Assembly (NCBI RefSeq): GCF_020131355.1
Contig: NZ_JAHLEL010000007.1
Coordinates: 226,817-290,816, forward strand
DNA length: 64,000 bases
Reading direction: 5' to 3'
Source of the DNA: Pseudonocardia sp. ICBG1293
Lineage (GTDB): Bacteria > Actinomycetota > Actinomycetes > Mycobacteriales > Pseudonocardiaceae
The position numbers and the translations under genes are program-made. This document shows positions 12,705 through 35,978 of the stretch, one piece after another (within the stretch, counting starts at the first letter, position 1; the number at the start of each line of letters is the position of its first letter). The notes under the pieces are model-generated. The model did no database searches. It saw only the letters and a list, made by a program, of their open reading frames with translations, and had not been told where the DNA came from.

Positions 12705-13211
12705 TCACGGCGTGTCCCCTCGGCCCTCGGAGCGGTGCAGGGTCGCGAAGGCGCCCCGGTGGTAGAGCAGCGGCGGGTGGTCGGTCACGTCGAGATCGCG
12801 CACCGCGCCGACGACGATCGTGTGGTCACCGCCGTCGGGCTCATCGTGCAGGTCGCAGTCCAACCAGGCGGCGACCCCGGCCGGACGCGGGCGCCCGTGC
12901 GACGAGGGGGTCCAGTCGAGACCGGCGAACTTGTCGGTGCCGCTGCGCGACATGGCCAGCGCGACCTGCTCCTGTCCGGCGGCGAGCACGGCGACACCGA
13001 ACCCACCGGCGGCGCGGATCCGCGGCCAGGTGCTCGAGCTGCGCGCAGGGGCGAGCAGTACCAGCGACGGGTCCAGCGACAACGAGCTGAACGACCGACA
13101 CGTCAACCCGAGCGGGACCCCGTCCGGGCCGAGCGCGGTCACCACGGTGATGCCGGAGCAGAACGCGCCCAGTACCTCCCGGAATTGCCGCGGATCGATC
13201 ACCGCGCTCAT
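12705..13211 (-). CDS. Flavin reductase family protein
   Basis: This 168-residue protein has the split-barrel flavin reductase fold. The N terminus FREVLGAFCSGITVVTA and the central TCRSFSSLSLDPSLVLL stretch are typical of NAD(P)H:FMN reductases that feed reduced flavin to two-component monooxygenases. Its ATG overlaps the stop of the acyl-CoA ligase gene (ATGA). A natural partner is the LLM monooxygenase-like protein encoded at 16009-17169; this is inference from neighbourhood. Confidence 0.88.
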   Translation of the reverse strand: MSAVIDPRQFREVLGAFCSGITVVTALGPDGVPLGLTCRSFSSLSLDPSLVLLAPARSSSTWPRIRAAGGFGVAVLAAGQEQVALAMSRSGTDKFAGLDWTPSSHGRPRPAGVAAWLDCDLHDEPDGGDHTIVVGAVRDLDVTDHPPLLYHRGAFATLHRSEGRGDTP

Positions 13212-14791: not shown

Positions 14792-14894
14792 ACGGTCCTC
14801 CTGGGTGGATCGGTCTGTTCGGTACGTGGGCCCGCCGGGTCGAGCGGGCTATGATCGGCCCCACACGGAGTGGTGTGCGGGGAGGTGCGACGAG

Positions 14895-15632
14895 ATGCGT
14901 GCCGTGGCGGCGTCGACGTTGTCCGCCGGCCAGCTGGGTCAGGTCTTCGCCGTGCTGGAGCGGGTGGACCGTGCGCACGACGTGGCCGGTTTCGCCGATG
15001 CCACGCTGGAGGCGCTGGGATCGGTCCTCGGCTTCCGCAACACCACGTTCTTCGTCGGCTCCACCTACGGCGGGCTGTTCCGGGACCCGGACCCGCTGCT
15101 CAACGGCCACCAGCGCACGTTGATCCGCGAGTACCGGGACCGCTGGGAACGCCACGACGTGTTCGCCCGCCCGCGGGAGGCCGCCGTCCTGCACCGCACG
15201 CACGCCACAGCGGTCGACGCCAGCGAACCGGTCGGTGCCGCCGACCGGGCCTACGTCGACTGGCTCGCCCACCACGGCCTGGGGAACATGGCCGCTGTGC
15301 GGGTCGGGCCGGGTGGCCGCGAGGCCCTGTTCGGCATCTTCGGCCCGCCCGGGACCGTGGGTCCGCAGGAGCTCGCGGTGCTGCGGCTACTGGGCCGCCA
15401 GCTCGACGCCGTGGCCCGGCACCTGCCGGACCGGGTGCCGTCGGCCGCGACGCCGCTGCCGCCGCGGCTCGCCCAGACCGCGGACCTGGTGCGGCGCGGC
15501 ATGACCAACGCGATGATCGCCCGGACGATGGAGCTGTCCGAGGACACCGTGAAGAAGTACGTCAGCCGGCTGCTGGAGCGGACCGGCGCGCAGAGCAGGA
15601 CCGAGCTGGCCCTGCTGCTGCGCGACGGCTGA
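14895..15632 (+). CDS. LuxR-family transcriptional regulator
   Basis: This 245-residue regulator has an N-terminal sensory domain (about residues 15-170) and a C-terminal LuxR/GerE helix-turn-helix (VRRGMTNAMIARTMELSEDT followed by VKKYVSRLLERTGAQSR). No response-regulator receiver domain is seen, so it probably senses a small molecule. ATG 14895 is chosen for its GGGGAGGT site; an in-frame GTG lies further upstream. It diverges from the acyl-CoA ligase and is the only regulator in the 12.7-18.5 kb island, which makes it the first candidate for the shared motif upstream of the LLM, orphan and SDR genes. Confidence 0.87.
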   Translation: MRAVAASTLSAGQLGQVFAVLERVDRAHDVAGFADATLEALGSVLGFRNTTFFVGSTYGGLFRDPDPLLNGHQRTLIREYRDRWERHDVFARPREAAVLHRTHATAVDASEPVGAADRAYVDWLAHHGLGNMAAVRVGPGGREALFGIFGPPGTVGPQELAVLRLLGRQLDAVARHLPDRVPSAATPLPPRLAQTADLVRRGMTNAMIARTMELSEDTVKKYVSRLLERTGAQSRTELALLLRDG

Positions 15633-15643
15633 CCGCTCCCGTC

Positions 15644-16012
15644 TCAGCCCAGCGCCGCGAACAGCGGGGCGAGCTGCGCGGTGTCGACGTACTCCTCGAT
15701 CCGGGTGACGCGGCCGTCGTCGCCGGTGTGCACGACGAGCACCGCGGGCGCCCGGAACACCCCGCCGTCGGGCAGGGTCCCGCGCAGCGTGTACTGCGCG
15801 ACCGACACCGCTCCCGCGTCGTGGGTCCGGACCTCGGCCATGCCGAAGTCGGGTACGACCCGTCGGATGGCACGGACCGACTCGACGGTGTCCGGCACCG
15901 TCGGCGCCTCCACCCCGTCGAACGAGTGCCAGGTGACGGCGCCGGGGGCGAACAGGCCCTCCCCCGGGTCGAGGGTCGTCAGCGCGTCGACGACGCGGGC
16001 GGCCGCCGTCAC
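15644..16012 (-). CDS. SnoaL/NTF2-like small protein
   Basis: This 122-residue protein has an NTF2-like fold. The pattern VWHS-type residues near the start (VTWHSFDG), then VRAIRRVVPDFGMAEV and a C-terminal VLVVHTGDDGRVTRIEEYVDTAQL is typical of SnoaL-like isomerase, cyclase or hydratase scaffolds. GTG start overlapping the LLM gene stop (GTGA), so it is co-translated with it. It may act on the product of the LLM enzyme; no catalytic residue can be named with confidence. Confidence 0.82.
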   Translation of the reverse strand: MTAAARVVDALTTLDPGEGLFAPGAVTWHSFDGVEAPTVPDTVESVRAIRRVVPDFGMAEVRTHDAGAVSVAQYTLRGTLPDGGVFRAPAVLVVHTGDDGRVTRIEEYVDTAQLAPLFAALG

Positions 16013-17169
16013 CGGGTGCGCTCCTGCTCGTACTTCTCCGTCATGTGGGCGACGGCGTCGAGCTGTGCCTTCGAGTGGCCGTCGCGCACCTCGGACGCGA
16101 GGCGGGCCGCGTCCACCGTCGGCCGGGCCTGGCCCTGGAAGTGCGGGGCGACCTCGCGGGCGAACAGCTCGAAGGAGCGCTTCGTCGCCGTCGGGTCGGC
16201 CCAGTCGTGCCCCATGAGCAGCAGGCTGCCGAAGCCGCCCGCCTGGTCGACGAGGCGCTGCACCTGTGCACGGGCCTGGTCCGGGGTACCGATGACGCCG
16301 ATACCCGCCTCGTTGATGAACTGGATCATCTCCTTGACGTTGTCGCCGGAGACGGCCATCTGCGGGAAGGCCGCGACCTTCTGGAAGTAGCCGAACCAGT
16401 GCTCGATGCCGTACTCGACCTCGCGGTAGGCCTCGTCCTCGGTCTCGGCGAGGTGGAACGGGCTGACCAGCCGCCAGCCGGAGCGGTCGACCTCGGTGCC
16501 GGCTGCGGCGGCCCGCTCCTCCATCACGCTCCAGTGGTGGGCGAGGGCGTCGAAGCCGTCCGCGGACAGCGTCGCGCCGATGCTGAGCAGGCCCAGGCCG
16601 TGCGTCCCGGCGAGGCGGGCGCCGGTCGGCGAGGCGACCGCGGCGACCGCGACGTCGAACAGCGGGTCGGAGTAGGGGGCCAGCTGCAACCGGGCGTCGA
16701 ACAGCGAGTGGGTGGGGGTCTCGGCCGTGACGCTCTCCCCGCGCAGCAGGCGGAGGATGATGTCGAGGTTCGTGCCGAGCAGCTCCCGGGTCTGGGTCGG
16801 GTTCAGCCCGATCATCGCCGAGTCGGTCGGCAGCGAGCCGGGCCCGACGCCGAGCATGGCCCGGCCGCGGGTCATGTGGTCGAGCTGCACCATGCGGTCG
16901 GCCACCCACAGCGGGTTGTGGTACGCGATCGAGGTGACACCGGTGCCCAGCTTGATCTGCCGGGTCCGCTGCGCGGCCGCGGCGATCATCAGCTCCGGGG
17001 ACGCGTAGATCTCGCTGCCCGCGGAGTGGTGCTCGCCGAACCACGCCTCGTCGTAGCCGAGCCGGTCCAGGTGCTCGATCAGCTCGAGATCCTGTTCGAA
17101 CAGCAGGGTCGGGTTGAGACCGGGGGCGTGCACGGGCGCGAGGAAGATGCCGAAATTCAGCCTGGCCAT
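16009..17169 (-). CDS. LLM-class flavin-dependent monooxygenase/oxidoreductase
   Basis: This 386-residue TIM-barrel protein is of the bacterial luciferase/limonene monooxygenase class. It begins MARLNFGIFLAPVHAPG and carries EAWFGEHHSAGSEIYASPELM, the usual substrate and flavin loop. RGRAMLGVGPGSLPTD and the C-terminal DQARAQVQRLVDQAGGFGSL stretch are also typical. It would need FMNH2 (or F420) from a reductase, and one is encoded at 12705-13211. ATG start behind a GAGAGG site. One copy of the shared 19-bp motif faces it 92 bases upstream. The substrate may be a terpenoid or a long-chain compound; unproven. Confidence 0.9.
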   Translation of the reverse strand: MARLNFGIFLAPVHAPGLNPTLLFEQDLELIEHLDRLGYDEAWFGEHHSAGSEIYASPELMIAAAAQRTRQIKLGTGVTSIAYHNPLWVADRMVQLDHMTRGRAMLGVGPGSLPTDSAMIGLNPTQTRELLGTNLDIILRLLRGESVTAETPTHSLFDARLQLAPYSDPLFDVAVAAVASPTGARLAGTHGLGLLSIGATLSADGFDALAHHWSVMEERAAAAGTEVDRSGWRLVSPFHLAETEDEAYREVEYGIEHWFGYFQKVAAFPQMAVSGDNVKEMIQFINEAGIGVIGTPDQARAQVQRLVDQAGGFGSLLLMGHDWADPTATKRSFELFAREVAPHFQGQARPTVDAARLASEVRDGHSKAQLDAVAHMTEKYEQERTR

Positions 17170-17260
17170 CACAGGGACCTCTCGTCGGCGGCGCGCCGTC
17201 GCGCCGCACCTCGGTGACGTCGTCAGGAGCCCACCGTGCTCCGGGCGGCGGTCGCCGTGC

Positions 17261-17304
17261 GAGTGCACAAAAGAGGACGCCGGGACGTCCTCCTCCGTGC
17301 ACTC
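17261..17304. promoter_or_regulatory. Divergent pair of 19-bp shared motifs
   Basis: Two copies of CGTCCTCnTnnGTGCACT face away from each other: one on the minus strand at 17261-17279 facing the LLM gene, one on the plus strand at 17286-17304 facing the 101-residue gene, with 6 bases between. A third copy is at 17649. Fifteen of 19 positions are identical in all three. This is a candidate activator site. Confidence 0.6.
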
Positions 17305-17338
17305 CCCACGCGGGCCGGGGCGGGCTAGCGTCGCGCGC

Positions 17339-17644
17339 ATGTACTTCCGGATAACCCCCGGCGACGTCGAGCTCGTCGACCCGGCCGACGTCCGCGCCTT
17401 CCACGTGGTCGCCCCGGTGGACCTGGGCGAGGACGAGCTCACCGACACCGTGCGCCGCACCGGTCTCGGCGAGGTCGACGACGGGCACGTCCTCGTACGG
17501 GTCGACGCGGTCCGCAGGCTGGCCGCCGGGCGGGTGGGCCCAGGCTGGGAGGACGACCTCGCCGGCATGCTCGGCTACGCCCGGAGCAAGGGCTGGCTCT
17601 CCGACGACGGCCGGACGGTGCGCGCGCACGTCGAGCGCGCCTGA
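17339..17644 (+). CDS. Conserved-looking small orphan protein (101 aa)
   Basis: I do not recognise this protein. It is 101 residues long, acidic in its first half (PGDVELVDPADV, VDLGEDELTDT) and ends with GWEDDLAGMLGYARSKGWLS and a short basic tail. There is no membrane segment or cysteine. The ATG is supported by promoter logic rather than by a ribosome site: a TAGCGT -10-like element sits at 17326-17331, about 7 bases before the ATG, which would give a leaderless mRNA. It shares its upstream motif and spacing with the SDR gene that follows, so all three genes probably form one regulon. The role is unknown. Confidence 0.65.
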   Translation: MYFRITPGDVELVDPADVRAFHVVAPVDLGEDELTDTVRRTGLGEVDDGHVLVRVDAVRRLAAGRVGPGWEDDLAGMLGYARSKGWLSDDGRTVRAHVERA

Positions 17645-18499: not shown

Positions 18500-20275
18500 C
18501 TACCGCTGCGGCAGGGCCACCGAGGACGGGGTGTCCGGCCCGGACAGCACCTCGATCCGGGCACCGTCGGCACCGGGGACGGGGCCGGTGGCCCGGGGGT
18601 CGTGGCCGGTCACCGTGACCTGGACCCGGTGCCCCGCCGGCACCCGGTAGGCGGTCGGGAGCATCGCGAAGTGCAGCCGCACGGCCTCCCCCGGCTCCAC
18701 CGGGGCGGCGTCGGCGGCGTACGCGCGGTGCCACGGGACGCCCTCGGGCAGGGTGTACGCGGGCGGGTGCTCGGCGCGCAGGGAGATCCGCTGCCGGCCC
18801 TCGGTGATCACGGTCGTGCGACCGTCCGGCGCGACCTCCTCGAGGTAGGCGAACACGTCGCCGTCGGCCCGGTCGGTGCGCACCGTCAGGTCGGCGACCG
18901 GGGCGCCGGTCAGCACGGTGTCGCGGTCCAGGACCGGTCCGGTCCAGCTCGTCCCGCTCCCGGGGACGTGGCAGGGCTGGACGGTCGCCCCGGAGCCGGG
19001 ATCGGTGGGGCACTCGGCGCCGGTGTCGACCGTGACGCCCCGGGCGCCGGGGGCGGCGGAGCCGAGGACACCGTCACCGCCGAGGGCGGCGGGCCGTGCG
19101 GCGATCCCGGCGGGCGGCCAGCTCGGCGCGGACTCCCACTCCAGACCCGTCGCGTCGGCGGTGTCCGACGACGGGGTGGCCCAGTGCACCGGTGGCTCGT
19201 CGGCGATGCCGGTGTCGATGCCCTTGAGGTGCTGGTCGAAGAACCGGTGGGCCTCCTCCACCAGCGCGAACCCGGCGTTCTCGCAGTGCTTCCAGGGGCC
19301 GATCAGCAACCGGGACCCGGGCACGTTCAGCAGCGCGGCGACGCCCTGGCCGCGCAGCTCGTCGCGCCACCCGCCGATGACGTAGACCGGTACCCCCGTG
19401 GAGCGGATCTCGTCGGCGTAGGTGCCGACGCTGCCCTCGGACCAGAAGCGCGACTGCGTGGCCGCGGTCCGGCTGTCCCGGTACGGCATGCCGCGCCACA
19501 TGTCGGCGAGCGGTACGGCCTTCTGGTGCTCGATCGCCGCCTCGCGCAGCAGCACCTTGTCCTCGTCACCGTCGATCGGCGCGTTCGCCAGGTCCTGCTC
19601 GACGGTGCGCGACGGGCCGAAGCCCCACTGCGCGGAGATGCCACCGGCCCGCCAGGCGTCGTACTTGTCCCAGGAGAAGCACCCCGCGAGCACCGCCCGC
19701 AGGTGCGGCGGGCGCACGGTCAGGGCGTGCATCGCGGCGTCTCCGGTGTTGGAGCAGCCGTAGACCCCGACGTTGCCGTCCGACCAGGGCTGCGCCGCCA
19801 GCCACTCGGTGATCTCGTAGGCGTCGCCGGCCTCCAGCCGGTCGTTGTAGCCGCGGCGTACCCCGAAGGACTGGCCGTTGCCGCGCCGGGCGACCTGGGC
19901 GACGACGTAGCCGTGCCCGGTGAGCGAGGGCATCGTCTGGATCCCGCCCGTCGCGGGGCCGGCACCGTCCTCCGGCTTGCGCTCGGTGGACAGGCTGTGC
20001 TGCCACAGCACCGGGAACGGCCCCGGCGCCGGTCGGCCGTCCACCGCGGGCCGGTCGAGCCGGACGGCGAGCCGGGTGCCGTCGCGCATCGGCAGCAGGA
20101 AGGACTCGCTGACCTGCTCGGTGAAGCCGGGTTCCGGACGGTACGAGCCGAGCGAGGAGGCCGTGGCGTCCCCGTCCGCCCGCGGGACGACGAGCACCGC
20201 GAGGGCGACGGCGGCCGCCAGGCCGAGGGCGACGAGTGCGGACACGAGCAGGGTGCGGCGGGATCGTCCGGGCAT
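18500..20275 (-). CDS. CocE/NonD-type X-Pro dipeptidyl-peptidase-like hydrolase, exported
   Basis: This 591-residue alpha/beta hydrolase has a signal peptide or anchor (basic MPGRSRRT then a hydrophobic run to residue 30). The nucleophile elbow is GCSNTG, and the aspartate and histidine regions are seen in VIGGWRDE and GPWKHCEN. The C-terminal 200 residues form the jelly-roll domain (LTVRTDRADGDVFAYLEEV). The family cleaves esters or amides such as alpha-amino acid esters, cocaine or X-Pro peptides. Start ATG behind GGAGG. It is the last gene of the large leftward cluster, 64 bases after the MFS gene. It may release the amino-acid-like substrate outside the cell for the importer encoded at the cluster's head. 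Confidence 0.88.
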   Translation of the reverse strand: MPGRSRRTLLVSALVALGLAAAVALAVLVVPRADGDATASSLGSYRPEPGFTEQVSESFLLPMRDGTRLAVRLDRPAVDGRPAPGPFPVLWQHSLSTERKPEDGAGPATGGIQTMPSLTGHGYVVAQVARRGNGQSFGVRRGYNDRLEAGDAYEITEWLAAQPWSDGNVGVYGCSNTGDAAMHALTVRPPHLRAVLAGCFSWDKYDAWRAGGISAQWGFGPSRTVEQDLANAPIDGDEDKVLLREAAIEHQKAVPLADMWRGMPYRDSRTAATQSRFWSEGSVGTYADEIRSTGVPVYVIGGWRDELRGQGVAALLNVPGSRLLIGPWKHCENAGFALVEEAHRFFDQHLKGIDTGIADEPPVHWATPSSDTADATGLEWESAPSWPPAGIAARPAALGGDGVLGSAAPGARGVTVDTGAECPTDPGSGATVQPCHVPGSGTSWTGPVLDRDTVLTGAPVADLTVRTDRADGDVFAYLEEVAPDGRTTVITEGRQRISLRAEHPPAYTLPEGVPWHRAYAADAAPVEPGEAVRLHFAMLPTAYRVPAGHRVQVTVTGHDPRATGPVPGADGARIEVLSGPDTPSSVALPQR

Positions 20276-20339
20276 GGTGGGGCCTCCGTGCAGCGGTCGG
20301 TGGTGCAACGGGTGGTGGGTGCGGCGCACGCGGTGCGGC

Positions 20340-21878
20340 TCAGGGGGCGGGCGCGGCCTCGCCGAGCGGGGTCTCGCGGATCCCGGCCACGGCGACCAGG
20401 GCGAGCACCGCGACCGGCAGGGTCGCCAGCACGGCCAGCTGGAGCCCGTGGGTGTAGGACGCCCGGACGGCGTCGGCCAGCGGCGCGGGGAGGGCGGCGA
20501 CCTCGGCGGGCGTACCGAGCAGCCGGCGGACGCCGTCGTCCCCGGCGGGCAGGCCCGCGGCGGCGAGTGCGCCGGGCAGGTCGCTGCGCAGCCGCGCGGT
20601 CAGCACCGCACCGAACGCGGCGACGCCGACGGCGCCGCCGAGGGTGCGCGCGAACGTGGCCGAGGACCCGGCGACCCCCACGTCACCGGGTCCCACGGCG
20701 TCCTGTGCGGCCAGCACCAGCACCTGTTGGGTCAGACCGGTCCCGGCGCCGAGCAGCGCCATCCCGGCGGCCACCTGCCAGGCGGGGGTCGCCGGGGTCA
20801 GCGGCGCGAGCACGGCCAGCCCCACGACGAGCAGCGCGCAGCCCGCCGTGGGGTAGCGCTTCCAGCGGCCGCTGCGCACGACCAGCCGCCCGACCACGGC
20901 CGAGGCGACGATCATGGTCCCCACCTGGGGCAGCATCAGCAGACCGGCGGTCATGGCGTCGTGGCCGTGGACGACCTGCAGGAACTGGGGCAGGTAGATG
21001 ATCCCGCCGAACATGACCGTGCCGACCAGCAGGCTGGCGGCGCAGGAGATGGTGAAGGTGCGGCTGCCGAACAGCCGCGGCGGCAGGACCGGGTCGGCGG
21101 CACGGCGCTCGCGCAGCACCGCGAGCGCACCGGCCGCCCCGACCGCGAGGCCGAGCACCACGGTCGGCGGGGACATCCACGGCCAGGCCACCCCGCCTGC
21201 CGACAGGAGCAGCACGAGGCCGCCCGCGGCCACGGCCAGCAGGGCCGCCCCCAGGTGGTCCAGCGGCGCGGTCCGGCGGGCCGGGCGGCGGTCCGGGGCG
21301 AGCCGGACGAGCGCGGCGGCGGCGATCGTCACCGGCACGACACCGAGGAAGCACCACCGCCAGCCCGGCCCGCCCGGGCCGACCAGCAACCCGCCGAGCA
21401 GCGGCCCGGCGACCGACGCCGTGCCGAAGGACAGCCCGAACCAGCCGGTGTAGCGACCCCGCTCGCGTGCCGGCACCAGCACCGCGACGAGTGCGTTCGC
21501 GCAGGCCAGGATGCCACCGGAGGCCGCGCCCTGGACGGCGCGACCGGCGATCAGCCACCCCATCGACGGGGCGAGCCCGGCCGCCAGCGACGCGACGACG
21601 AACAGCGCGATCGCCGCCAGCAGCACCGGCCGCGGGCCGCGCCGGTCCGCGAGCTTGCCCCACACCGGCGTCGCCGCGGCCATCGTGAGCAGAGCGGCCG
21701 CGGCGACCCAGGCGGCACGGTCCTGCCCGCCCAGCTCACCGGCGATCGTGGGCAGCGCGATCCCGATGATCGTGTTCGTCAGCGAGCCGGTGAACAGCGC
21801 GACCAGGGCGCCGGCGAGCACCGCGGGGGTGGACGGCCGGGGGACGCCCACGGCGGCGGGGGCCGGCGCCTCAGCCAT
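20340..21878 (-). CDS. MFS drug/metabolite exporter (EmrB/QacA type)
   Basis: This 512-residue transporter is of the drug:H+ antiporter-2 group, with many hydrophobic segments consistent with 14 helices. The motif GKLADRRGPRPVLL lies in the first loop, and the exporter signature around RAVQGAASGG is present. Its ATG overlaps the preceding dehydratase-like gene by 8 bases, so it is co-translated. In this cluster an importer and an exporter are both present. The MFS protein may expel an end product or a toxic intermediate. Annotating it as a drug pump would go beyond the evidence. Confidence 0.9.
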   Translation of the reverse strand: MAEAPAPAAVGVPRPSTPAVLAGALVALFTGSLTNTIIGIALPTIAGELGGQDRAAWVAAAALLTMAAATPVWGKLADRRGPRPVLLAAIALFVVASLAAGLAPSMGWLIAGRAVQGAASGGILACANALVAVLVPARERGRYTGWFGLSFGTASVAGPLLGGLLVGPGGPGWRWCFLGVVPVTIAAAALVRLAPDRRPARRTAPLDHLGAALLAVAAGGLVLLLSAGGVAWPWMSPPTVVLGLAVGAAGALAVLRERRAADPVLPPRLFGSRTFTISCAASLLVGTVMFGGIIYLPQFLQVVHGHDAMTAGLLMLPQVGTMIVASAVVGRLVVRSGRWKRYPTAGCALLVVGLAVLAPLTPATPAWQVAAGMALLGAGTGLTQQVLVLAAQDAVGPGDVGVAGSSATFARTLGGAVGVAAFGAVLTARLRSDLPGALAAAGLPAGDDGVRRLLGTPAEVAALPAPLADAVRASYTHGLQLAVLATLPVAVLALVAVAGIRETPLGEAAPAP

Positions 21879-23142
21879 CGGTCCGGGGCAGCACCTCGTC
21901 CTGCAGCCACCCACCGACCGCCGCGTCGAGGTGACCGGGCCCGGTGCCGCGGTCGTCGACGTTGTCGGCGTGCAGCTCCAGCACCGGGATCCCGGCCGCG
22001 CGCAGTGCCCGGGTGGTCGCCCAGCTGCCCCGGGCGTCGTCGGACACCAGGTGCACGACGCCGTCGACGCCGTGCGCGCGGGCCTCCTTGACGTACCACT
22101 CGGCCGACCAGGGCGGCGTGTAGAGCTGGTCGGAGAACGCCGCGAACCGGGCGGCGAGGGTGCGCAGCGGGTCGTCGCCGTAGCGGACGTAGCCGTCGGC
22201 GGCGATGGCCAGGTACATCGACCACACGAACACCGCGCCGTACCGCTCCTGGATCCGGCGGAACAGGTCCAGGTCGAACCACAGGCCGCGGCCGACCCAC
22301 ATCAGCCGGGCCCGCTCGTGGTCGGCGACGGCCGCGCCGGCGGCGATCCGGTCCGCGACCTCGTCGTGCAGCCTGCGGGCCGCGTCCCGCGCCCACACCG
22401 TGCCGCGGTGCCACTGCGGCACCATCACGGCCGGGATGGAGTCGGTGACCGCGACCGGGCACGGACGCGCCGCGGCGATCAGGTCCCGGGTGCGCCGGTT
22501 CCACTCCTCCTGCTCGTTGGTGAGCGCCAGCACCTCGGCGAAGCGCCGTTCGGGGAACCGACGCCCGGTGGTCTGCTCCAGGAACCGGATCAGTCCCTCC
22601 AGCTCACCGACCATGAGGTCCAGGCGGTCGGTCCCGACCGCCTCCTCCCAGCGGTGCGGCATCAGCTCCCACCAGCGCTCCGGGACGGTGTCGGCGGCCG
22701 CGCTCTCCAGCGGGAAGAAGGTGACGCCGGGCCGCGAGCCCCAGACGTCGAAGATCTTCCGCGAGGCGTCGCCGGTGGTCTCGGCGAGCACGATCGAGGG
22801 CATCGGGAGCCCGCCCCACGGCGCGCTCGCCGGGTCCGGGTCGAAGGCGCTGCCGAGCGCGGTGGAGCTGTACTGCTCGGTGTAGTCGGGGTAGCCGCGC
22901 TCGCGCAGGCGGGCGAGGTGGTCCTGGGTGCGCCGCTTGGCGGAGACGATCGACGCCCACCACTGGTTGACCACGTACGGGATCCCCATCGCACGGAACA
23001 CCTCCTGCGGGGCGTCCGCGTTGACCAGGGCCAGCGGGGCCCCGGGGAGGTGGTCGCGCTGCAGCTCGGCGAACCACCGGCGCTGGTACGCCGTCGCCTC
23101 GGCCGCGCTGGACAGCCGGCCCGTCCGGGCCGGGGCGCTCAC
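21871..23142 (-). CDS. 2-hydroxyacyl-CoA dehydratase-like protein, Fe-S ligands lost
   Basis: This 423-residue protein resembles the HgdB/BcrB (2-hydroxyglutaryl-CoA dehydratase / benzoyl-CoA reductase) family: a start with VFRAMGIPYVV, the block RLMWVGRGLW, then GAVFVWSMYL and a C-terminal DGVVHLVSDDARGSW plus GIPVLELHADNVDDR. True members bind a [4Fe-4S] cluster through conserved cysteines. Here I count a single cysteine (C228), and the usual cysteine positions read TTGDAS (near 123) and SDDARGS. The cluster is therefore probably absent. GTG start, overlapping the previous gene by GTGA. It may be a structural or differently catalytic homologue. Confidence 0.72.
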   Translation of the reverse strand: MSAPARTGRLSSAAEATAYQRRWFAELQRDHLPGAPLALVNADAPQEVFRAMGIPYVVNQWWASIVSAKRRTQDHLARLRERGYPDYTEQYSSTALGSAFDPDPASAPWGGLPMPSIVLAETTGDASRKIFDVWGSRPGVTFFPLESAAADTVPERWWELMPHRWEEAVGTDRLDLMVGELEGLIRFLEQTTGRRFPERRFAEVLALTNEQEEWNRRTRDLIAAARPCPVAVTDSIPAVMVPQWHRGTVWARDAARRLHDEVADRIAAGAAVADHERARLMWVGRGLWFDLDLFRRIQERYGAVFVWSMYLAIAADGYVRYGDDPLRTLAARFAAFSDQLYTPPWSAEWYVKEARAHGVDGVVHLVSDDARGSWATTRALRAAGIPVLELHADNVDDRGTGPGHLDAAVGGWLQDEVLPRTDG

Positions 23143-24248
23143 GCCGCGACCGCCGGGCGGCGCAGGTCGGCGAGGGCCCGGTCGAGACCGTCCGGGTCGA
23201 TCCGGCCGTAGGGCTGGCGCTCCAGCAGCGCCGCGGGCACGCCGGCGGCGGCGCGTTGCGCGGGCCAGTCCCACGGCGGCGCGTCGTCGTGCTCGCGGAC
23301 GTAGCCGAGCAGCCCCTCCGCGGCCCGGGCACGGATCCGGGCGGCGGTGTGCGCGGCCCGCTCCGCGATCGAGGACCGCGGCGCCGACGGACCGTTGGCC
23401 TGGTACCTCTCCGCGAGCGCGAGCTCCAGCCCCGCCGGGTCGCTGGGGACGCCGACGTCGACCGCGACGAGCAGGTCGCCACGGTCGTGGTCCTCACCGA
23501 CGACGAGCAGCCCGGCGGACTCCAGCGTCGCGTAGACCGACGGCTCGTCGTGCGCGGAGCCGGTGACGTGGACGGGGTGCCCGGGCCGCGGGTCGCGCAC
23601 GGGCAGCTCCTCGGCCAGCGCCGTCAGCAGCTCCGCGGCGCGGGCGGGCGGCAGGGCGCAGGCCGCGTCGACGACGCCGAGGAACTCGGTGCCCGTGAGC
23701 CGGCGCGTGGAGCGCAGGTCCCCCAGGCCGCGCAGCAGGCCACGCACCCGGTCGGGCGCCACGACGGCGGCGGCGAGCGCGTCGTCGCCGACCGGGCGTC
23801 CGGAGCGCTCGCCCAGCCAGGTCCGCAGGCCGCGGACCTTGGCCCGGACGTAGCGGGTGGTCGTGCGGTGCGGCAGGTGCAGGACGTCGACCAGGTGCAC
23901 CGGGGGCAACGCGACCGACGGCTCGACCCGGCGCAGCTCGCGGAGCACGTAGAACAGCCGCAGCGAGGCCTCGCAGTCCCGCGAGACGACGAGCACGTCG
24001 AGCGGGCCGTACGCCCCGTCGAGCAGCCGGGTCAGGACCGAGTGGGCGACCGGGTCGAGTCCGCCGCCGAGCAGGCGCCGTCCGGCCGAGGCGTCCTCCA
24101 CCGGCGAGCCGGACAGCCGCAGCGGGCGGTAGCCGGCGGCGGTGAGCAGCTCGACCGGCACGTCGGCACCGACGTGGCCGGCGACCGGCCGGTCGTCACC
24201 CGCCCCGGAGCGGGCGGGGTCCAGCAACGCAGCGAGGGCTGCGGACAT
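23139..24248 (-). CDS. Second 2-hydroxyacyl-CoA dehydratase-like subunit
   Basis: This 369-residue protein is a partner of the downstream dehydratase-like gene, in the two-subunit order normal for the family. Recognisable blocks are GADVPVELLTAAGYRPLRLSG (start), LDVLVVSRDCEASLRLFYVLREL and a C-terminal AAGVPAALLERQPYG. Only two cysteines remain (C92 in SRDCEAS, which may match a true cluster ligand, and C197). The other expected ligand positions read DPVAHS and HDDAPP. No ATPase activator (HgdC type) is in the cluster. The ATG lies 14 bases after the CoA-transferase stop. The family assignment is by eye and should be confirmed by profile search. Confidence 0.65.
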   Translation of the reverse strand: MSAALAALLDPARSGAGDDRPVAGHVGADVPVELLTAAGYRPLRLSGSPVEDASAGRRLLGGGLDPVAHSVLTRLLDGAYGPLDVLVVSRDCEASLRLFYVLRELRRVEPSVALPPVHLVDVLHLPHRTTTRYVRAKVRGLRTWLGERSGRPVGDDALAAAVVAPDRVRGLLRGLGDLRSTRRLTGTEFLGVVDAACALPPARAAELLTALAEELPVRDPRPGHPVHVTGSAHDEPSVYATLESAGLLVVGEDHDRGDLLVAVDVGVPSDPAGLELALAERYQANGPSAPRSSIAERAAHTAARIRARAAEGLLGYVREHDDAPPWDWPAQRAAAGVPAALLERQPYGRIDPDGLDRALADLRRPAVAA

Positions 24249-24262
24249 GGCGATCCTCCGGG

Positions 24263-25513
24263 TCAGATGACGGCGTCGGCGGCGAGTGCGGCGACGTCGT
24301 CGGCGTCGTAGCCGAGCAGCTCGCGGTACACGCGGTCGTTGTGTTGGCCGAGTACCGGCGCGGGGCCGTCGAGCCCGACGTCGGCACCCGAGAACACGAT
24401 GGGCATCCCGGTGGCGGACAGGTCCGCCACCGCGCCGTGCCGCGGGTGGGTGGGCGGGACGACCTCCCGGCGCTCGCGCACCAGCGGGTCCCGGACGGCC
24501 TCCAACGGGTCGCGGACCTCCGCCGCGGGCACACCCTCGGCGGTGAGCCGGGCGATCACCTCGGCCCGGGGCAGGTCCCGGCACCAGGCGGCGATCAGGG
24601 CGTGCAGCTCGTCGGCCCGCTCCACCCGGCGGTCCCGCGTGCGGTAGCGCTCGTCGTCGACGAGGTCCGCGCGCCCCATCGCGCGCAGCACGCCGCGGGC
24701 GAAGGCGTCGGTGGGGGCGCAGAGCGCGACGTGGCCGTCGGCGGCCGGGAGGATGCCGAACGGGGCGAGCCGCGGGACCATCGCGCCGGTGCGCTGCTCC
24801 AGGCCGACGGCGTCGTAGGCGTCGAACGGCTCGCAGGCCACGAGCGAGGTGAGCGCGCCCAGCATGGAGACGTCGACGTGCTGGCCGTGTCCGGTGCGCT
24901 CGGCCTGCAGCAGCGCCGACACCGTCCCGACCACGGCGTACAGCGGGGCGAGCAGGTCCCCGATCGGGAGCCCGAACCGCACCGGGTCGCCGCCGGGCTC
25001 GCCCGCGGTCATCATCACCCCGGACAGCGCCTGGATGATCGCGTCCATCGCCTTGCCCGACCCCGGACCGCCCTGGGCGCCGAACCCGCTGATCGAGGTG
25101 TACACCAGCGCCGGGTTGATCTCGCGGACCGCGGCGTAGTCGATCCCCAGCCTCGAGGTGACCCCCGGGGAGTAGTTCTCGACCAGGACGTCGGCGTGCC
25201 GCACGAGGTCGGTGAACACCGTCTTGGACCGCGGGTCCTTCAGGTTCAGCGTCACGCTGAGCTTGCCGCGGCCGCGCAGCAGCATCGACACCGACATGTC
25301 GTCGTCGTGCAGGCGGGACAGCGCCAGGCCGTCCCGGCCCAGGTAGGGGGCGTTGTTGCGGGAGGTGTCGCCGCCGGTGGCGGGGTTCTCCACCTTGATC
25401 ACGGTCGCGCCCAGCCCGGCCAGGAGCAGGGTGGCGTAGGGGCCGGCGAGCGCGGTGGTCAGGTCGATGACGGTGCGGCCGGCGAGCGGCTGGTCGGTCG
25501 CGTTCTCGGTCAC
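24263..25513 (-). CDS. CaiB/BaiF family CoA-transferase
   Basis: This 416-residue class III CoA-transferase moves CoA between acids. The N terminus TVIDLTTALAGPYATLLLAGLGATVIKVE is typical, and the catalytic aspartate is most likely in GKAMDAIIQALSG. GTG start overlapping the CapA-like gene (GTGA). Placed directly before the two dehydratase-like genes, it recalls the HadA-HadBC order of amino-acid fermenters, where the transferase activates a 2-hydroxy acid for dehydration. That parallel is what makes the cysteine-poor partners so odd here. Confidence 0.9.
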   Translation of the reverse strand: MTENATDQPLAGRTVIDLTTALAGPYATLLLAGLGATVIKVENPATGGDTSRNNAPYLGRDGLALSRLHDDDMSVSMLLRGRGKLSVTLNLKDPRSKTVFTDLVRHADVLVENYSPGVTSRLGIDYAAVREINPALVYTSISGFGAQGGPGSGKAMDAIIQALSGVMMTAGEPGGDPVRFGLPIGDLLAPLYAVVGTVSALLQAERTGHGQHVDVSMLGALTSLVACEPFDAYDAVGLEQRTGAMVPRLAPFGILPAADGHVALCAPTDAFARGVLRAMGRADLVDDERYRTRDRRVERADELHALIAAWCRDLPRAEVIARLTAEGVPAAEVRDPLEAVRDPLVRERREVVPPTHPRHGAVADLSATGMPIVFSGADVGLDGPAPVLGQHNDRVYRELLGYDADDVAALAADAVI

Positions 25514-26660
25514 GCTGTCTCCTCGGACGAGCCCGCCCCGGCGACGAGCCAGTCGTCGCCCCGGCGGACCAGGCGGGCACCCAGCCGGGCGCGGGTGGTG
25601 ATGTCGCGGACGTAGTCGACGACGGGCGAGTCCGGGCCCTGCGGGACGGGGCGGCCCGCGTCGTCGATCCGGCAGGGGACGATCCCCGCCTCGACGAGCC
25701 CGCCGCGGTCGAACCGGCAGGTGGCGACGACGGTGTCGCGGCTCTCGGGGTGGAAGGGGTAGAAGGGCATGTCCGGGTCGGGGGCGAAGCCGTACAGCTC
25801 CGTGCGGCGCCGCGCCCACGCGTCACCCACGCGCTGTCCCCGCCGGACGCCGGGGTCAGCGCGTGGGTGACGGTCACGAAGTTGCCGAGCCCGTGGAAGA
25901 TCGGCTTCCCGCGCCATACCTCGATGCCGCGCAGGATGTGCGCGTGGTGGCCGAACACGGCGTCGGCCCCGGCGTCCACGGCGGCCCTGGCGACCGGCGA
26001 CTCGTACATCGCGACCGCGGCCGGGGTGTGGCCGACGCCCTTGTGCAGCGCGACCAGCACGACGTCGACCTCGGCGCGCAGCCGTGCGACGTCGTCGGTC
26101 ATCTCCTCCAGCGACTCGGGGTCGGCGAAGGTGTAGACGCGCGGCGGCCCGCCGGGGCTGGCGTGGTCGAGCTCGTAGTGGGTGAGCACCCGGACCGGGG
26201 CGCAGCCCGCCTTGCGGGAGGTCGCCCAGGACTCGCGCGGACCCACGCAGTTGTAGGACAGCACCCCGATCCGCAGGCCGCCGCGCTCGACGACGGCGGG
26301 CGCGCGGGCCTCGGCGAGGTCGGCGCCCGCGCCCGCGGTGAGCAGCCCGGCCCGGCGCGCGTGGGCGACGGTGTCGGTCACGCCGACCTCGCCCGCGTCG
26401 AACACGTGGTTGCCGGCCAGGGTGACGACGTCGAACCCGGCGTCGGCCAGCGCGCCGAGCGCGGCCGGGTCGGCCGGCGGCGCCGGCACGTCGGTGGACA
26501 CCTGCGCCGTGGTCGTGGAGTGCGGGACCTCGACGTGGCCGACCGTCAGGTCGGCGGCGCGGAGCAGCGCGGCGGACGGCGCGAGGAAGGACGCCGGGTC
26601 GGGCTCGTCGAGGATCAGGTCCCCGACCGAGGCGACGGTGACCGATGTCGGGGTGCTCAT
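25510..26660 (-). pseudogene. CapA-like metallophosphatase gene with a frameshift
   Basis: This is a CapA/poly-gamma-glutamate-synthesis-type calcineurin-fold phosphatase. Metal-binding motifs are clear: VGDLIL near residue 12, AGNHVFDAGE near 82, LHKGVGH and GHHAHILRG. The N-terminal 270 or so residues read in one frame up to ALTPASGGDSAWV. The C-terminal part (AWARRRTELYGFAPDPDM onward to the stop at 25510) is in another frame. One extra base near 25822-25828 would restore SAWVDAWARRRTELYG and a protein of about 383 residues. It is either a real frameshift or a one-base error in a GC-rich run. It overlaps the ABC ATPase gene (ATGA). Its role in this cluster is unexplained. Confidence 0.8.
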
Positions 26661-27433
26661 GCGGGGACCTCCCGGGTGTGGCGGGACAGGAAGGCGCGCA
26701 GCCGGTCGCTGGACGGGTTGCCGAAGACCTGCGCGGGCGGCCCGGTCTCGACGACGCGGCCGGCCTCCATGAACACGACGCGGTCCGCGACCTGGCGGGC
26801 GAAGGCCATCTCGTGGGTGACCACGACCATCGTCAGGCCGTCGGCGGCCAGCGTCCGCAGGACGCCCAGGACCTCCTCGACCAGCTCCGGGTCGAGCGCG
26901 GAGGTGGGCTCGTCGAACAGCAGGATCCGCGGCCGGGTCGCCAGCGCACGGGCGATCGCCACGCGCTGCTGCTGCCCCCCGGAGAGCTGGCGCGGGTAGT
27001 GGTGCAGCCGGTCGCCCAGGCCGACCCGCTCCAGCAGCGCGACGGCGTCGCGACGGGCCTGGTCGGCGGAGCGGCCGTGCACCCGCCGCGGCACCTCGGT
27101 GACGTTGCGCAGCGCGTCGAAGTGCGGGAACAGGTTGAACTGCTGGAACACCATGCCGATCCGGCGGCGCTGGGCGGCGACGCCCTTCGGGGTGAGCGGA
27201 CGCAGCCCGCCGCGGTGCTCCTCGTGGCCGAGGAGCTCACCGTCGAGGTACATCCCGCCGGCGTCGAGGGACTCGAGCTGGTGGACGCAGCGGACCAGGG
27301 TCGACTTGCCCGACCCCGAGGGGCCGATCACGACGACGACCTCCCCCTCGGTCACGTCGAGGTCGACGCCGTCGAGCGCGGCGTGCGACCCGAACCGCTT
27401 GGTCACACCGTGCAGGTGCAGGACGGGGCTCAC
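26657..27433 (-). CDS. Polar amino acid ABC transporter ATPase (GlnQ type)
   Basis: This 258-residue ABC ATPase has Walker A GPSGSGKST, signature LSGGQQQRVAIARALA, Walker B RILLFDEP and the switch histidine in VVVTHEM. The sequence VFQQFNLFPHFDALRNVT is typical of the glutamine/histidine importer group. An insertion after the Walker A region (LLGHEEHRGGLRPLTPKG) is somewhat longer than usual. GTG start, overlapping the permease gene by GTGA. It works with the permease and binding protein encoded directly upstream. Confidence 0.93.
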   Translation of the reverse strand: MSPVLHLHGVTKRFGSHAALDGVDLDVTEGEVVVVIGPSGSGKSTLVRCVHQLESLDAGGMYLDGELLGHEEHRGGLRPLTPKGVAAQRRRIGMVFQQFNLFPHFDALRNVTEVPRRVHGRSADQARRDAVALLERVGLGDRLHHYPRQLSGGQQQRVAIARALATRPRILLFDEPTSALDPELVEEVLGVLRTLAADGLTMVVVTHEMAFARQVADRVVFMEAGRVVETGPPAQVFGNPSSDRLRAFLSRHTREVPA

Positions 27434-28323
27434 GAGGCACCTCCGGCCGCGGCCGTCCGGACGTGCCCGCGGGCGAACCGGCGCTCCAGCCGTCGTTGCG
27501 CCACCGTGAGCAGCGTGACGACGGCCAGGTACCAGATGCAGGCCACGAGCAGGTTGGGGACGATCTCGTAGGTCTGGTTGTAGATGATCTGCACCGCGTT
27601 GAGCAGGTCGTTCATCGCGATCACCGACACCAGCGCGGTGCCCTTCACGACCGTGATGAACTGGCTCCCCGACGGCGGGATGATGACCCGCATCGCCTGC
27701 GGCAGGACGATCCGGAAGAACGTCTGGGCCGGGGTGAAGCCCATCGCGGCCGCGGCCTCGCGCTGCCCGTGGTCGACACCGAGGATCCCGGCGCGCACGA
27801 TCTCGGCCATGTAGGCGGACTGGACGAGCGAGAGCCCGATCACCGCCGCGGTCAGCGGGGTGATGACGTCGTTGGCGTCCCAGGACACCAGGGTCGGTCC
27901 GAACGGCAGGCCGATCGAGATCCGTGGCACCAGGTAGGCCAGGTTGAACCAGAAGATCAGCTGGACCAGCGGCGGGATGCCCCGGAACACCCCGACGTAG
28001 ACGGTGGCGGCCCAGCGGACCGGCCCCAGGTCCGACAGTTGTGCGGCGGCGAGCAGACCGCCCAGCAACGACCCGATCACCATCGCGGCGACCGCCAGCA
28101 GCAGCGTCGTGACCAGGCCCCGGAGCACCGCGGGGGCGAACAGGTTGGCGGCGACGACGTCCCACTGGAACCGCTCGTTGCCGACCAGGAAGACGGCGAT
28201 CCGGACGACGACCAGGGCCAGCAGCAGCGAGGCGACCCAGCGCCACGGGCGGAACCGGGGGCGGGCGGTCGCGACGTCGTGCGTCCCCGGGCCGGTGGTC
28301 GACGGCGGCGCGGTGACGGTCAC
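27430..28323 (-). CDS. Polar amino acid ABC transporter permease (HisM/GlnP type)
   Basis: This 297-residue inner-membrane permease has a hydrophobic segment near residue 30 and a core of about five more. The coupling motif for the ATPase is seen as EAAAAMGFTPAQTFFRIVLPQAMRVIIPP (split here only by its length). A single permease implies a homodimer. GTG start overlapping the binding-protein gene (GTGA). The importer heads the operon, so the cluster most likely handles an amino acid or a related small polar acid taken up from outside. Confidence 0.92.
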   Translation of the reverse strand: MTVTAPPSTTGPGTHDVATARPRFRPWRWVASLLLALVVVRIAVFLVGNERFQWDVVAANLFAPAVLRGLVTTLLLAVAAMVIGSLLGGLLAAAQLSDLGPVRWAATVYVGVFRGIPPLVQLIFWFNLAYLVPRISIGLPFGPTLVSWDANDVITPLTAAVIGLSLVQSAYMAEIVRAGILGVDHGQREAAAAMGFTPAQTFFRIVLPQAMRVIIPPSGSQFITVVKGTALVSVIAMNDLLNAVQIIYNQTYEIVPNLLVACIWYLAVVTLLTVAQRRLERRFARGHVRTAAAGGAS

Positions 28324-29240
28324 GGCGTGGTCCCCGCGTTCAGCTCCGGCGCCGAGACGGTCACGTCGTCGAGACCCCAGCGGGACATGATTCCGGCGTA
28401 GGTGCCGTCCCGGAACAGCTCCTCGAACGCCCGCTGCAGCACCGGCCCGAGCTCCTCGGACTTCGGGACGAACAGCGCGAGCTTGTCGACGGTGGCGCCC
28501 TGCTCCCCGGTCTGGGTGACGTAGGTGTAGACGCCCTGCTGCTGCGCGGTCACGTCGATCGCGGCCGCCTGGGTCATCCCGGCGGCGTCCGCCCGGCCGG
28601 ACCGGGCGGCGAGCAGGGTGGCGTTGGTGTCGGCCAGCCCGATCGAGGTGACCGCCGGGCGGCCGGTGCGGGTGCAGTACTCGGAGAGCAGCCGCAGCTG
28701 CTCCTCGACGACGCTCGCGGTCGTCACGGCGACCCGCCGGCCGCACAGGTCGTCGGCGGCGCCCACGTCCAGCGGCGAGTCGGCGGGGACGACATAGGAC
28801 GTCCTGGTGGTCATCCAGGTGACCGTGTCGAACTGCCGCTCGCGCTCGGCGGTGACCTTCACGGGTCCGTTGAAGGCGTCGTAGCGGCCGGCCAGCATCC
28901 CCTGCAGCGCGGCCGGGAGGCTGTCGACGACGACGGTCTCGGTCCGGACGCCGAGCACCCGGGCCAGGGCGTCCTGGAAGTCCCGGTCGATCCCGGTGAT
29001 GGTGCCGTCGCCGGCGACCGTGCGGTACGGCGGATGCGAGTCGCCGGCGAACCGGATGACGCCCGCCTCCTTGACCGCGTCGGGCAGTGCCGCGTGCAGC
29101 TCGGCGTTCGCACCGGGCGGCAGCGGGGCGTCCGCGGGGTCCCCGGACCCCCCGGTCCCACAGCCGGCGAGCAGCAGCACCGAGGCGGACAGGACGCCGA
29201 GACCCAGGACACGGGGGCGGCGTGGACGGGTGTGGCGCAT
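28320..29240 (-). CDS. Amino acid ABC transporter substrate-binding lipoprotein
   Basis: This 306-residue family-3 solute-binding protein has a lipoprotein signal: basic MRHTRPRRPRV, a hydrophobic run, and lipobox LLAGC with the cysteine near residue 27. Further on, GDSHPPYRTVAGDGTITGIDRDF is the typical start of the ligand domain. ATG start 29240 with a GGGAG site. It is the first gene of the nine-gene leftward cluster and so lies directly behind its promoter, divergent from the PaaX regulator. Ligand unknown. Confidence 0.9.
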   Translation of the reverse strand: MRHTRPRRPRVLGLGVLSASVLLLAGCGTGGSGDPADAPLPPGANAELHAALPDAVKEAGVIRFAGDSHPPYRTVAGDGTITGIDRDFQDALARVLGVRTETVVVDSLPAALQGMLAGRYDAFNGPVKVTAERERQFDTVTWMTTRTSYVVPADSPLDVGAADDLCGRRVAVTTASVVEEQLRLLSEYCTRTGRPAVTSIGLADTNATLLAARSGRADAAGMTQAAAIDVTAQQQGVYTYVTQTGEQGATVDKLALFVPKSEELGPVLQRAFEELFRDGTYAGIMSRWGLDDVTVSAPELNAGTTP

Positions 29241-29409: not shown

Positions 29410-30405
29410 ATGTCGATGCCGGACGACGGGCGCACGCGGGCGGAGCCACAGCTGCTGCTGACCTCGCTGCTCGGTGACTACTGGTACTGGCGCGACGAGC
29501 ACATCCCGTCGGCCGCGCTGGTCCGGCTGCTCGCCGAGTTCGGGATCGGCCGGGAGAACGCCCGTGCGGCGATGCGCAGGCTCGCCGCCAAGGGGCTGCT
29601 GACGACCTCGCGCGCCGGCCGGACCACGGCCTACGGCATCCCGCCCCGGACCAGCGACGTCATCGTGGACCGGACCCACCGGATGCTGGTCTTCGGCGCG
29701 TCCGCGCCGGACTGGGACGGCCGGTGGACCGTCGTCGCGTTCTCGGTGCCCGAGCAGGAACGCGAGATCCGCACGGCACTGCGCTCCCGGCTGCGGGTGC
29801 TCGGATTCGCCGCCCTGTACGACGGCCTGTGGGTCTCCCCGCACGACCTCGCCGGATCCGCCCACGACCTCGTCGCCGAGCTGGGCATCGGCCGGGCCAC
29901 GGTCCTGCGGGCGACCGAGGTGCCCGGCGGGCCGCACGGCGGCGGGCCCGCGTCGGCGTTCGACGTGGACGGCCTGGCCGCCGAGTACGCGGGGTTCGTC
30001 CGGACCTACGCGCCACTGCGCGACGGTCTCGCCGCGGGCCGGATCGGCCCGGCCGAGGCGCTGCGCATCCGCACCGAGCTGCGGGTGGCGTGGCACACCT
30101 TCCCCGAGCGCGACCCCGACCTCCCCGCGGTGATGCTCCCTGCGGGGTGGGCCCGACCGCAGGCGCAACAGCTGTTCGTCGAGGTCTACGACCGGCTCGG
30201 ACCGCTGGCCGAGCACCGGTTCCGGCAGGTGCTCGCCGAGGTCGACCCGGGTCTCGCCGGGCTGGCCTCGCACCACGACAGTGCCCGCATCGCGCGCCTG
30301 TACTCCGAGCTCGGTGACCGCAGGGCCCGGGGCGACACCCCGTTCGAGCAGGCGGTCCGCGAGCGCAGGCTCGACGAGGTGCGGCGCGGCAGGCCGTCGG
30401 TCTGA
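29410..30405 (+). CDS. PaaX-family transcriptional regulator
   Basis: This 331-residue regulator is of the PaaX type. The N-terminal winged helix is seen in LLTSLLGDYWYWRDEHIPSA and IGRENARAAMRRLAAKGLL. The central domain begins RWTVVAFSVPEQEREIRTALRSRL, and the C-terminal PaaX domain holds AWHTFPERDPDLPAVMLPAGW. PaaX itself represses phenylacetate genes and is released by a CoA thioester. A CoA-type effector fits here because the divergent cluster contains a CoA-transferase. ATG 29410 is given; ATG 29416 is better spaced from the GGGAGGG site and may be the real start. Confidence 0.9.
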   Translation: MSMPDDGRTRAEPQLLLTSLLGDYWYWRDEHIPSAALVRLLAEFGIGRENARAAMRRLAAKGLLTTSRAGRTTAYGIPPRTSDVIVDRTHRMLVFGASAPDWDGRWTVVAFSVPEQEREIRTALRSRLRVLGFAALYDGLWVSPHDLAGSAHDLVAELGIGRATVLRATEVPGGPHGGGPASAFDVDGLAAEYAGFVRTYAPLRDGLAAGRIGPAEALRIRTELRVAWHTFPERDPDLPAVMLPAGWARPQAQQLFVEVYDRLGPLAEHRFRQVLAEVDPGLAGLASHHDSARIARLYSELGDRRARGDTPFEQAVRERRLDEVRRGRPSV

Positions 30406-33114: not shown

Positions 33115-33142
33115 CGGTGTCTCCTCCGTGGGGGCGTCCCGC

Positions 33143-33182
33143 GCGTCGGCGGGCCCACCCGGGGAGGTGGACCCGCCGACGC
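33143..33182 (-). terminator. Hairpin terminator downstream of the LLM gene
   Basis: A 17-bp stem with one mismatch (GCGTCGGCGGGCCCACC pairing with GGTGGACCCGCCGACGC) and a 6-base loop lies between the LLM stop at 33252 and the acetoacetate-CoA ligase start. It separates two leftward transcription units. Confidence 0.7.
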
Positions 33183-33251
33183 GGTGCTGCGGTGCGGTGC
33201 CGCGGTCAGCCCGCGGCGCGGGGTCGCCGGGGGGCACCCGGCTCGGAGCGC

Positions 33252-34250: not shown

Positions 34251-34292
34251 GTGATGCTGCCTCCTTGCGGCATGACAGTGTCGCGAACAGCG

Positions 34293-35831: not shown

Positions 35832-35978
35832 CGCAGCTCCCCGGACTCGCACCGTTGCGGACAGCGACGACCGTGGCGAAAATCTGGACAGTTGTCAAGA
35901 TTCTGCTGTCCACCGCCGGACCGATCGTGCACGACAGAACGCTCGGGCGACAGGGGCCGTCGCCGTGCGCGCACGACG

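Follow-up and report, generated by a model that had tools for sequence, protein, structure and literature searches.

In the window analysed here, a 64,000-nucleotide stretch of contig NZ_JAHLEL010000007.1 of Pseudonocardia sp. ICBG1293 (positions 226,817 to 290,816), two adjacent genes on the minus strand encode proteins A (21871..23142, 423 residues, one cysteine) and B (23139..24248, 369 residues, two cysteines), which belong to the fold superfamily of 2-hydroxyacyl-coenzyme A (CoA) dehydratases and benzoyl-CoA reductases. They are part of a large clade, spread over many genera of aerobic soil bacteria, which has retained the fold and a partner CoA-transferase while lacking the cysteine ligands of the iron-sulfur cluster and, as a rule, the activator. 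A first-pass annotation had described the pair as having lost the Fe-S cysteines. That observation is real and wider than stated, with one residue corrected: in the window the cysteine is missing from five of the six ligand positions, while that of the sixth, Cys92 of B, survives and had been overlooked.

Both proteins pass the cut-off (28.4 bits) of the HGD-D family profile PF06050, A with 145.9 bits (profile positions 4-327 of 342) and B with 107.9 bits (4-287 of 342), and were the only PF06050 matches found in a genome-wide profile search (7.96 Mb). A is a subunit of the HadB/BzdO/MbdO type and B of the BzdN/HadC type. Structure prediction gives both proteins an overall HadB/HadC-type fold, matching HadB and BzdN/HadC across nearly the full length; the solved sequences scoring best by profile for the two were BzdNO (8s02) and MbdON (9g87). 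Profile search and structure prediction both agree with the earlier description of a HgdB/BcrB-like pair, and the cysteine counts given with it were correct. A is likely to be the catalytic subunit. Scores for named functions were low. With the NCBIfam class I benzoyl-CoA reductase equivalogs, A reached 52.0 bits against a cut-off of 448.6 (bzdO) and B 22.9 against 453.8 (bzdN); the double-cubane cluster reductase model NF040772 (cut-off 350) gave 30.9 for A and 24.3 for B, and the HadB model (cut-off 750) 44.6.

According to PMC8473912, 2-hydroxyacyl-CoA dehydratases hold a [4Fe-4S] cluster with three cysteine ligands per subunit. The corresponding columns were located by profile alignments to solved chains and by aligning the pair with canonical proteins from other genomes of the phylum, 27 of the A type and 25 of the B type. 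The canonical set consists of the weaker PF06050-type matches from 28 genomes, of which 27 gave an A row, while 25 B rows passed the score filter; these rows are stop-to-stop frames and may carry extra residues. HadB C84, C117 and C346 (chain numbering) correspond to A89, A124 and A370, where the window protein has Glu89, Gly124 and Ala370, the third column being Ala370 by MAFFT and Asp368 by HMMER. Cysteine is present at each of these columns in 27/27 canonical A-type rows, whereas none of the 82 actinobacterial A rows has it at any of the three. The usual replacements are Glu at A89 (67 rows), Gly at A124 (80) and Ala, Pro or Val at A370 (74). The total number of cysteines is 0-3 in the 82 rows and 0-4 in the best 120 of 1908 A homologues, which also lack cysteine at the three columns. 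Since these columns are always cysteine in the canonical A-type rows, as are the B columns below except for gaps, and never in the actinobacterial A rows, the loss is not a matter of chance. The alignment confirmed that the motifs TTGDAS, SDDARGS, DPVAHS and HDDAPP stand at the usual ligand positions. An alignment with shifted cysteines or a placement outside the HGD-D family had been named beforehand as the outcomes that would speak against the loss, and neither was seen in actinobacteria. Shifted cysteines in actinobacterial A were rejected, with 0/82 at a ligand column; what comes closest is a lone cysteine two residues ahead of the second column in 10/82, and one of the listed A homologues (best 120 of 1908) has a cysteine beside the first column.

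In B of the window the former ligand positions are Asp65, Cys92 and Asp321. Canonical B-type rows have cysteine in 22/25 at B65, 23/25 at B92 and 25/25 at B321, the remainder being gaps. The B set of the family holds 86 rows, six of which score below 150 bits and are reported apart from the 80 strong rows. Asp65 is present in 78/80 strong rows, and Asp321 in 80/80 strong rows and in 86/86 with the weak rows included. Cys92 (SRDCEAS) occupies the second ligand position, where BzdN, HadC and the double-cubane protein also have cysteine. It is Cys in 67 of the 80 strong rows and Ser in 12, so cysteine is not required at this position. Two candidates were rejected at this site. An essential Cys92, kept in 120/120 of the best 120 of 278 B homologues, is contradicted by these Ser rows and by Asp or Asn in sphingomonads, and a universal Asp-Cys-Asp metal site in B fails for the same reasons.

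The earlier claim that no activator gene is present could be extended to the whole genome, where a profile search gave 0 matches to PF01869 and 0 to TIGR00241. An activator over the cut-off was found in 27 of the 28 genomes with canonical proteins and was absent from 47 of 50 genomes with the pair (the 50 being the genomes searched for 48 of the 80 loci described below, 47 in number, plus G000, G075 and G258). Nor was an activator present in five plasmid records that carry sphingomonad or rhizobial representatives of the family, the chromosomes of those alphaproteobacteria not having been searched. The column of HadB Glu55, the active-site glutamate, is Gln60 in 86 of 87 family A rows (from which locus L085 is left out, its match being too long) and Glu in 26/27 canonical rows. 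These findings bear on the possibility that A-B has remained a radical 2-hydroxyacyl-CoA dehydratase or reductase, with the cluster on non-cysteine ligands or on a partner and with an unlinked reductant. The fold and PF06050 score, the adjoining CaiB-type CoA-transferase, the retention of Cys92 in most B rows and the activators in 3/50 genomes are in line with such an enzyme; however, the low cysteine content of actinobacterial A with none at the ligand columns, the lack of an activator in the other 47 genomes and the change of Glu55 to Gln render it very unlikely. Because ligands and activator are lacking, A-B should be classed neither with the 2-hydroxyacyl-CoA dehydratases nor with the benzoyl-CoA reductases. 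The cysteine-poor A/B proteins are probably misnamed where automatic annotation calls them, for example, 2-hydroxyacyl-CoA dehydratase.

On a Rhizobium leguminosarum plasmid (locus L117, 11809-17237), a canonical-type PF06050 pair with two activase genes lies near rhodanese-like and sulfate permease genes. Such a pair is unusual in this aerobic host.

Other residues of A have become conserved in the family. Asp125 and Asp369, each beside a lost ligand position, are present in 81/82 and 82/82 actinobacterial rows, whereas canonical residues are mostly Gly or Asn in the first column and Ser in the second. His245 and Gln60 are each found in 82/82 actinobacterial rows. Ten tryptophans (61, 62, 109, 134, 157, 165, 244, 250, 307 and 349) are near-invariant and largely family-specific, W62 occurring in 4/27 and W134 in 3/27 canonical A-type rows; the mean number of tryptophans per A protein is 17.0 in the family and 7.7 in canonical proteins. 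Asp125, Asp369, His245, Gln60 and the Trp-rich set are common to actinobacterial and sphingomonad A and are not shared by the canonical enzymes. In a maximum-likelihood tree, the family (47 rows) was split from the 27 canonical rows with a Shimodaira-Hasegawa-like approximate likelihood ratio test support of 100, and the actinobacterial and sphingomonad rows each lay on one side of a branch with support of 99. The tree is a quick run with long branches flagged, in which the placement of loci L116 and L084 is unsure. When 396 genomes of the phylum were sampled, a family member was present in 3, the source genome included, and a weaker canonical-type match in 28.

The conservation of the genes around A and B was followed in 80 loci, the best 80 of 325 confirmed matches, so that the counts lean to close relatives; gene calls in these relatives come from our own open reading frame heuristics and not from annotation. 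B adjoins A in 79/80 loci, and the order CaiB-B-A is kept in 78, the exceptions being L057 (genes rearranged) and L065 (a 3.7-kb contig). CapA-CaiB-B-A is found in 66/80 and importer-CapA-CaiB-B-A in 56/80, and a PaaX-type match is present somewhere in the locus in 63/80. In L084 and L085 a single open frame (768 and 821 codons) encodes a B-like and then an A-like domain, which supports A and B working together. Some loci without the amino-acid-type importer have polyamine-like, branched-chain-type or oligopeptide-type importer genes nearby, and another alpha/beta hydrolase lies near the pair in 29 loci. The linkage to a CaiB-type CoA-transferase, recurring with the same neighbours in other actinomycetes, was therefore borne out. 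The comparison with the HadA-HadBC order is only partial: CaiB does stand next to the pair, but the conserved operon also contains a CapA-type protein and an importer, often with a PaaX-type regulator close by.

In the window, the minus-strand order is solute-binding protein, permease, ATPase, CapA, CaiB, B and A, followed by a major facilitator superfamily (MFS) transporter and a CocE/NonD-type hydrolase. A family 3 solute-binding protein, a predicted lipoprotein (28320..29240; PF00497, 64.5 bits; start set by eye, with a lipobox-like stretch), precedes the permease (27430..28170) and ATPase (26657..27424) of an amino-acid-type ATP-binding cassette (ABC) importer, both profile matches with approximate starts. 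The CapA-type gene (25560..26660; PF09587, 190.1 bits; 3' end approximate) is spread over two reading frames in the window and is a single frame in six relatives (L003, L004, L005, L006, L011 and L016); the break is either a sequencing error or a true mutation. The CaiB-type (family III) CoA-transferase (24263..25513; PF02515, 351.6 bits; start codon predicted) keeps an Asp that is aligned across all five solved CoA-transferases compared and which we take to be the catalytic residue. The GTG start codon of A overlaps the TGA of B, the two genes sharing four bases. Beyond A lie the DHA2-type MFS transporter (20340..21914, minus strand; start unrefined) and the CocE/NonD-type hydrolase (18500..20329, minus strand), both profile matches. 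The former was seen in 18/80 related loci and the latter in 15/80, with linkage also in four sphingomonad loci. Divergent from the operon, on the plus strand, is a PaaX-type regulator (29410..30405, start unrefined) with PaaX, PaaX_M and PaaX_C over the cut-off; its score with TIGR02277 is 132.5 bits, below the cut-off of 264.55. Genes for AMP-forming acyl-CoA synthetases and luciferase-like monooxygenases flank the operon on both sides (13208-17568 and 31162-35852).

The cysteine loss itself and the frame break of CapA could be taken as signs that A and B are decaying remnants of a lost anaerobic pathway. Strong conservation over 87 A rows, kept synteny and a clade that extends over many genera make this extremely improbable, and decay or a pseudogene was rejected as contradicted by conservation, tree and synteny. 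A non-catalytic role, in which the pair would be a scaffold, chaperone or sensor binding the CoA ester for CaiB or CapA, is in better agreement with the data, as the cluster ligands are all gone from the subunit that is catalytic in the known enzymes, linkage to CaiB is tight, and B of sphingomonads is shortened and diverged. Yet A retains 36-41% identity between phyla (CapA is better conserved still, at 46-48%), and its many near-invariant polar and aromatic residues go beyond the usual conservation of a scaffold; we regard this role as improbable.

The sphingomonad relatives offer a second view of the family. A was matched in eight plasmid records, seven of which (Novosphingobium, Croceicoccus and one Rhizobium) show 36-41% identity; five of the seven were examined. 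Four sphingomonad loci share with the actinobacterial ones CapA, CaiB, A and a B that has diverged, and a tripartite ATP-independent periplasmic (TRAP) transporter replaces the ABC transporter in the three annotated ones. In these (L113-L115) the order is CocE, CapA, TRAP permeases, diverged B, double CoA-transferase, A, DctP, PETase-like hydrolase and CoA-transferase, with a TonB-receptor gene between CocE and CapA in two; the unannotated L118 gave matching hits to this gene set. Sphingomonad B is annotated as hypothetical and was recognised by the B profile. Identity to the actinobacterial genes is 46-48% for CapA, 34-38% for CocE, 32-37% for the PETase-like hydrolase and 30-37% for CaiB. 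The rhizobial locus L116 yielded recognisable CaiB (two copies), B and A only. The double CoA-transferase of L113 (11893-13995), with counterparts in L114 and L115, has about 700 residues and more than one stretch that matches family III, a further single-domain one being present in the same gene run.

The A proteins of L113 (13992-15290), L114 (13965-15248) and L115 (13950-15248) have the cysteine pattern CxxCx5C plus CxC, and Asn takes the third canonical ligand position. Among the best 120 of 2233 sphingomonad-type A proteins, Cys 89, 92, 98, 124 and 126 are invariant (120/120) and position 370 is Asn in 119. This five-cysteine set, as read from the alignment, is possibly a new metal site unlike the canonical one. 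Sphingomonad B loses Asp65 and Cys92, B92 being Asp or Asn. The shared gene core suggests that both branches run the same reaction; if so, a cluster held by cysteines cannot be necessary for the reaction. A mononuclear metal enzyme has to be considered here, in which Asp/Cys/Asp of B or Asp125/Asp369 of A would hold one Zn, Fe or Mn ion that polarises the thioester carbonyl. The near-universal Asp321 and Asp65 at former cysteine positions of B, the near-invariant Asp125 and Asp369 of A and the five invariant cysteines of sphingomonad A are consistent with it, but B does not keep one ligand set throughout, given the Ser rows at B92 and the loss of both Asp65 and Cys92 in sphingomonads. We rate a metal enzyme of this kind as unlikely, though less so than the non-catalytic role.

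The reading we favour, as reasonably probable, is a cluster-free, redox-neutral and activator-independent processing by A-B of a CoA thioester made by CaiB. Judging by the type of importer, by the PaaX-type regulator and by the hydrolases that some loci carry, the module would degrade a polar acid, which may be ester- or amide-linked. The importer would bring in a polar organic acid, amino acid or ester; in loci carrying them, CocE- or PETase-like hydrolases could cleave ester or amide links, and CapA might act on a stereocentre or bond ahead of activation. CaiB would then form the CoA thioester, which A, with B as the partner subunit, would bind in the ancestral substrate pocket. Acid-base groups of A (Asp125, Asp369, His245) or one metal ion would run the redox-neutral step, for which elimination/hydration or a bond-cleaving lyase reaction is the first choice; Gln60, in place of the canonical Glu, and the Trp-rich set would be the other likely working groups. 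The CoA ester would be the signal sensed by the PaaX-type regulator. As to the substrate, two tentative guesses can be named. Betaines or cyclic amino acids were considered in view of the Trp-rich A and of ectoine-like importer scores, which fell below the cut-off. Hydroxycinnamate-type esters were considered in view of enzyme genes near the sphingomonad loci, namely a hydroxycinnamoyl-CoA hydratase/lyase near L113 and a tannase/feruloyl-esterase-like gene near L115.

Several observations weigh against the redox-neutral processing proposed here. An activator over the cut-off is present in three genomes with the pair (L010, L019 and L073), and three more have a weak match below it. A lone cysteine lies two residues before A124 in 10/82 actinobacterial A rows, and a metal site may matter in the sphingomonad branch because of its five invariant cysteines. 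A of L116 deviates at conserved sites (His245 to Asn, Gln60 to Thr, Asp369 to Gly). That Asp125, Asp369 and His245 may share one pocket is judged from their closeness in sequence to the ligand columns. CapA is not at the expected place in 14/80 loci and, with only CaiB, B and A recognised in rhizobial L116, is not obligatory; its broken frame in the window means that the pathway of this strain may be impaired or the assembly wrong. The hydrolases are minority neighbours, the CocE type in 15/80 loci and the PETase-like in 11.

More tentatively, and somewhat short of an even chance, the pair may represent an oxygen-tolerant, activator-free branch of CoA-thioester lyases. The fold would then exist in three metal-site states, namely three-cysteine canonical, five-cysteine sphingomonad and cluster-free actinobacterial, the five-cysteine and cluster-free states occurring in one catabolic module common to both branches. 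The five-cysteine branch makes the question directly testable, as it provides two branches with a shared gene core and different metal sites. Among the titles listed in a literature search, none dealt with a PF06050 branch free of cysteines or with this operon; the search covered subscription journals thinly and is not proof of absence.

Among known systems, the CapA-type epimerase MslH (8gq9) is matched by the CapA family of the operon in sequence (3.3e-23, L073 protein), but CapA here scores 107.6 against an equivalog cut-off of 700, and apart from this weak match no lasso-peptide families were seen among the scanned operon genes. Compared with the double-cubane cluster protein DCCP (6eno), no partner ATPase was found here, and a DCCP-type ligand set is gone from B because the further cysteine of canonical B-type rows (22/25) is replaced by Asp255. 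The class I benzoyl-CoA reductases BzdNO and MbdON have the same A and B subunit types as the present pair, which differs in missing the cluster ligands and the activator and in scoring far from the equivalog cut-offs. HadBC (PDB 3o3m) with HadA resembles it in having a family III CoA-transferase in the same operon; here the ligand cysteines are replaced, Glu55 has become Gln60, an activator was not found, and CapA and importer genes are present in addition. In PMC8473912, the known enzymes are described as extremely oxygen-sensitive, with ketyl-radical chemistry, low-potential clusters and ATP-driven activation, the thioester carbonyl being bound to the cluster and receiving one electron from the activator. 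If it is true that the present clade acts on CoA thioesters, it would show that this radical chemistry is replaceable on the same scaffold.

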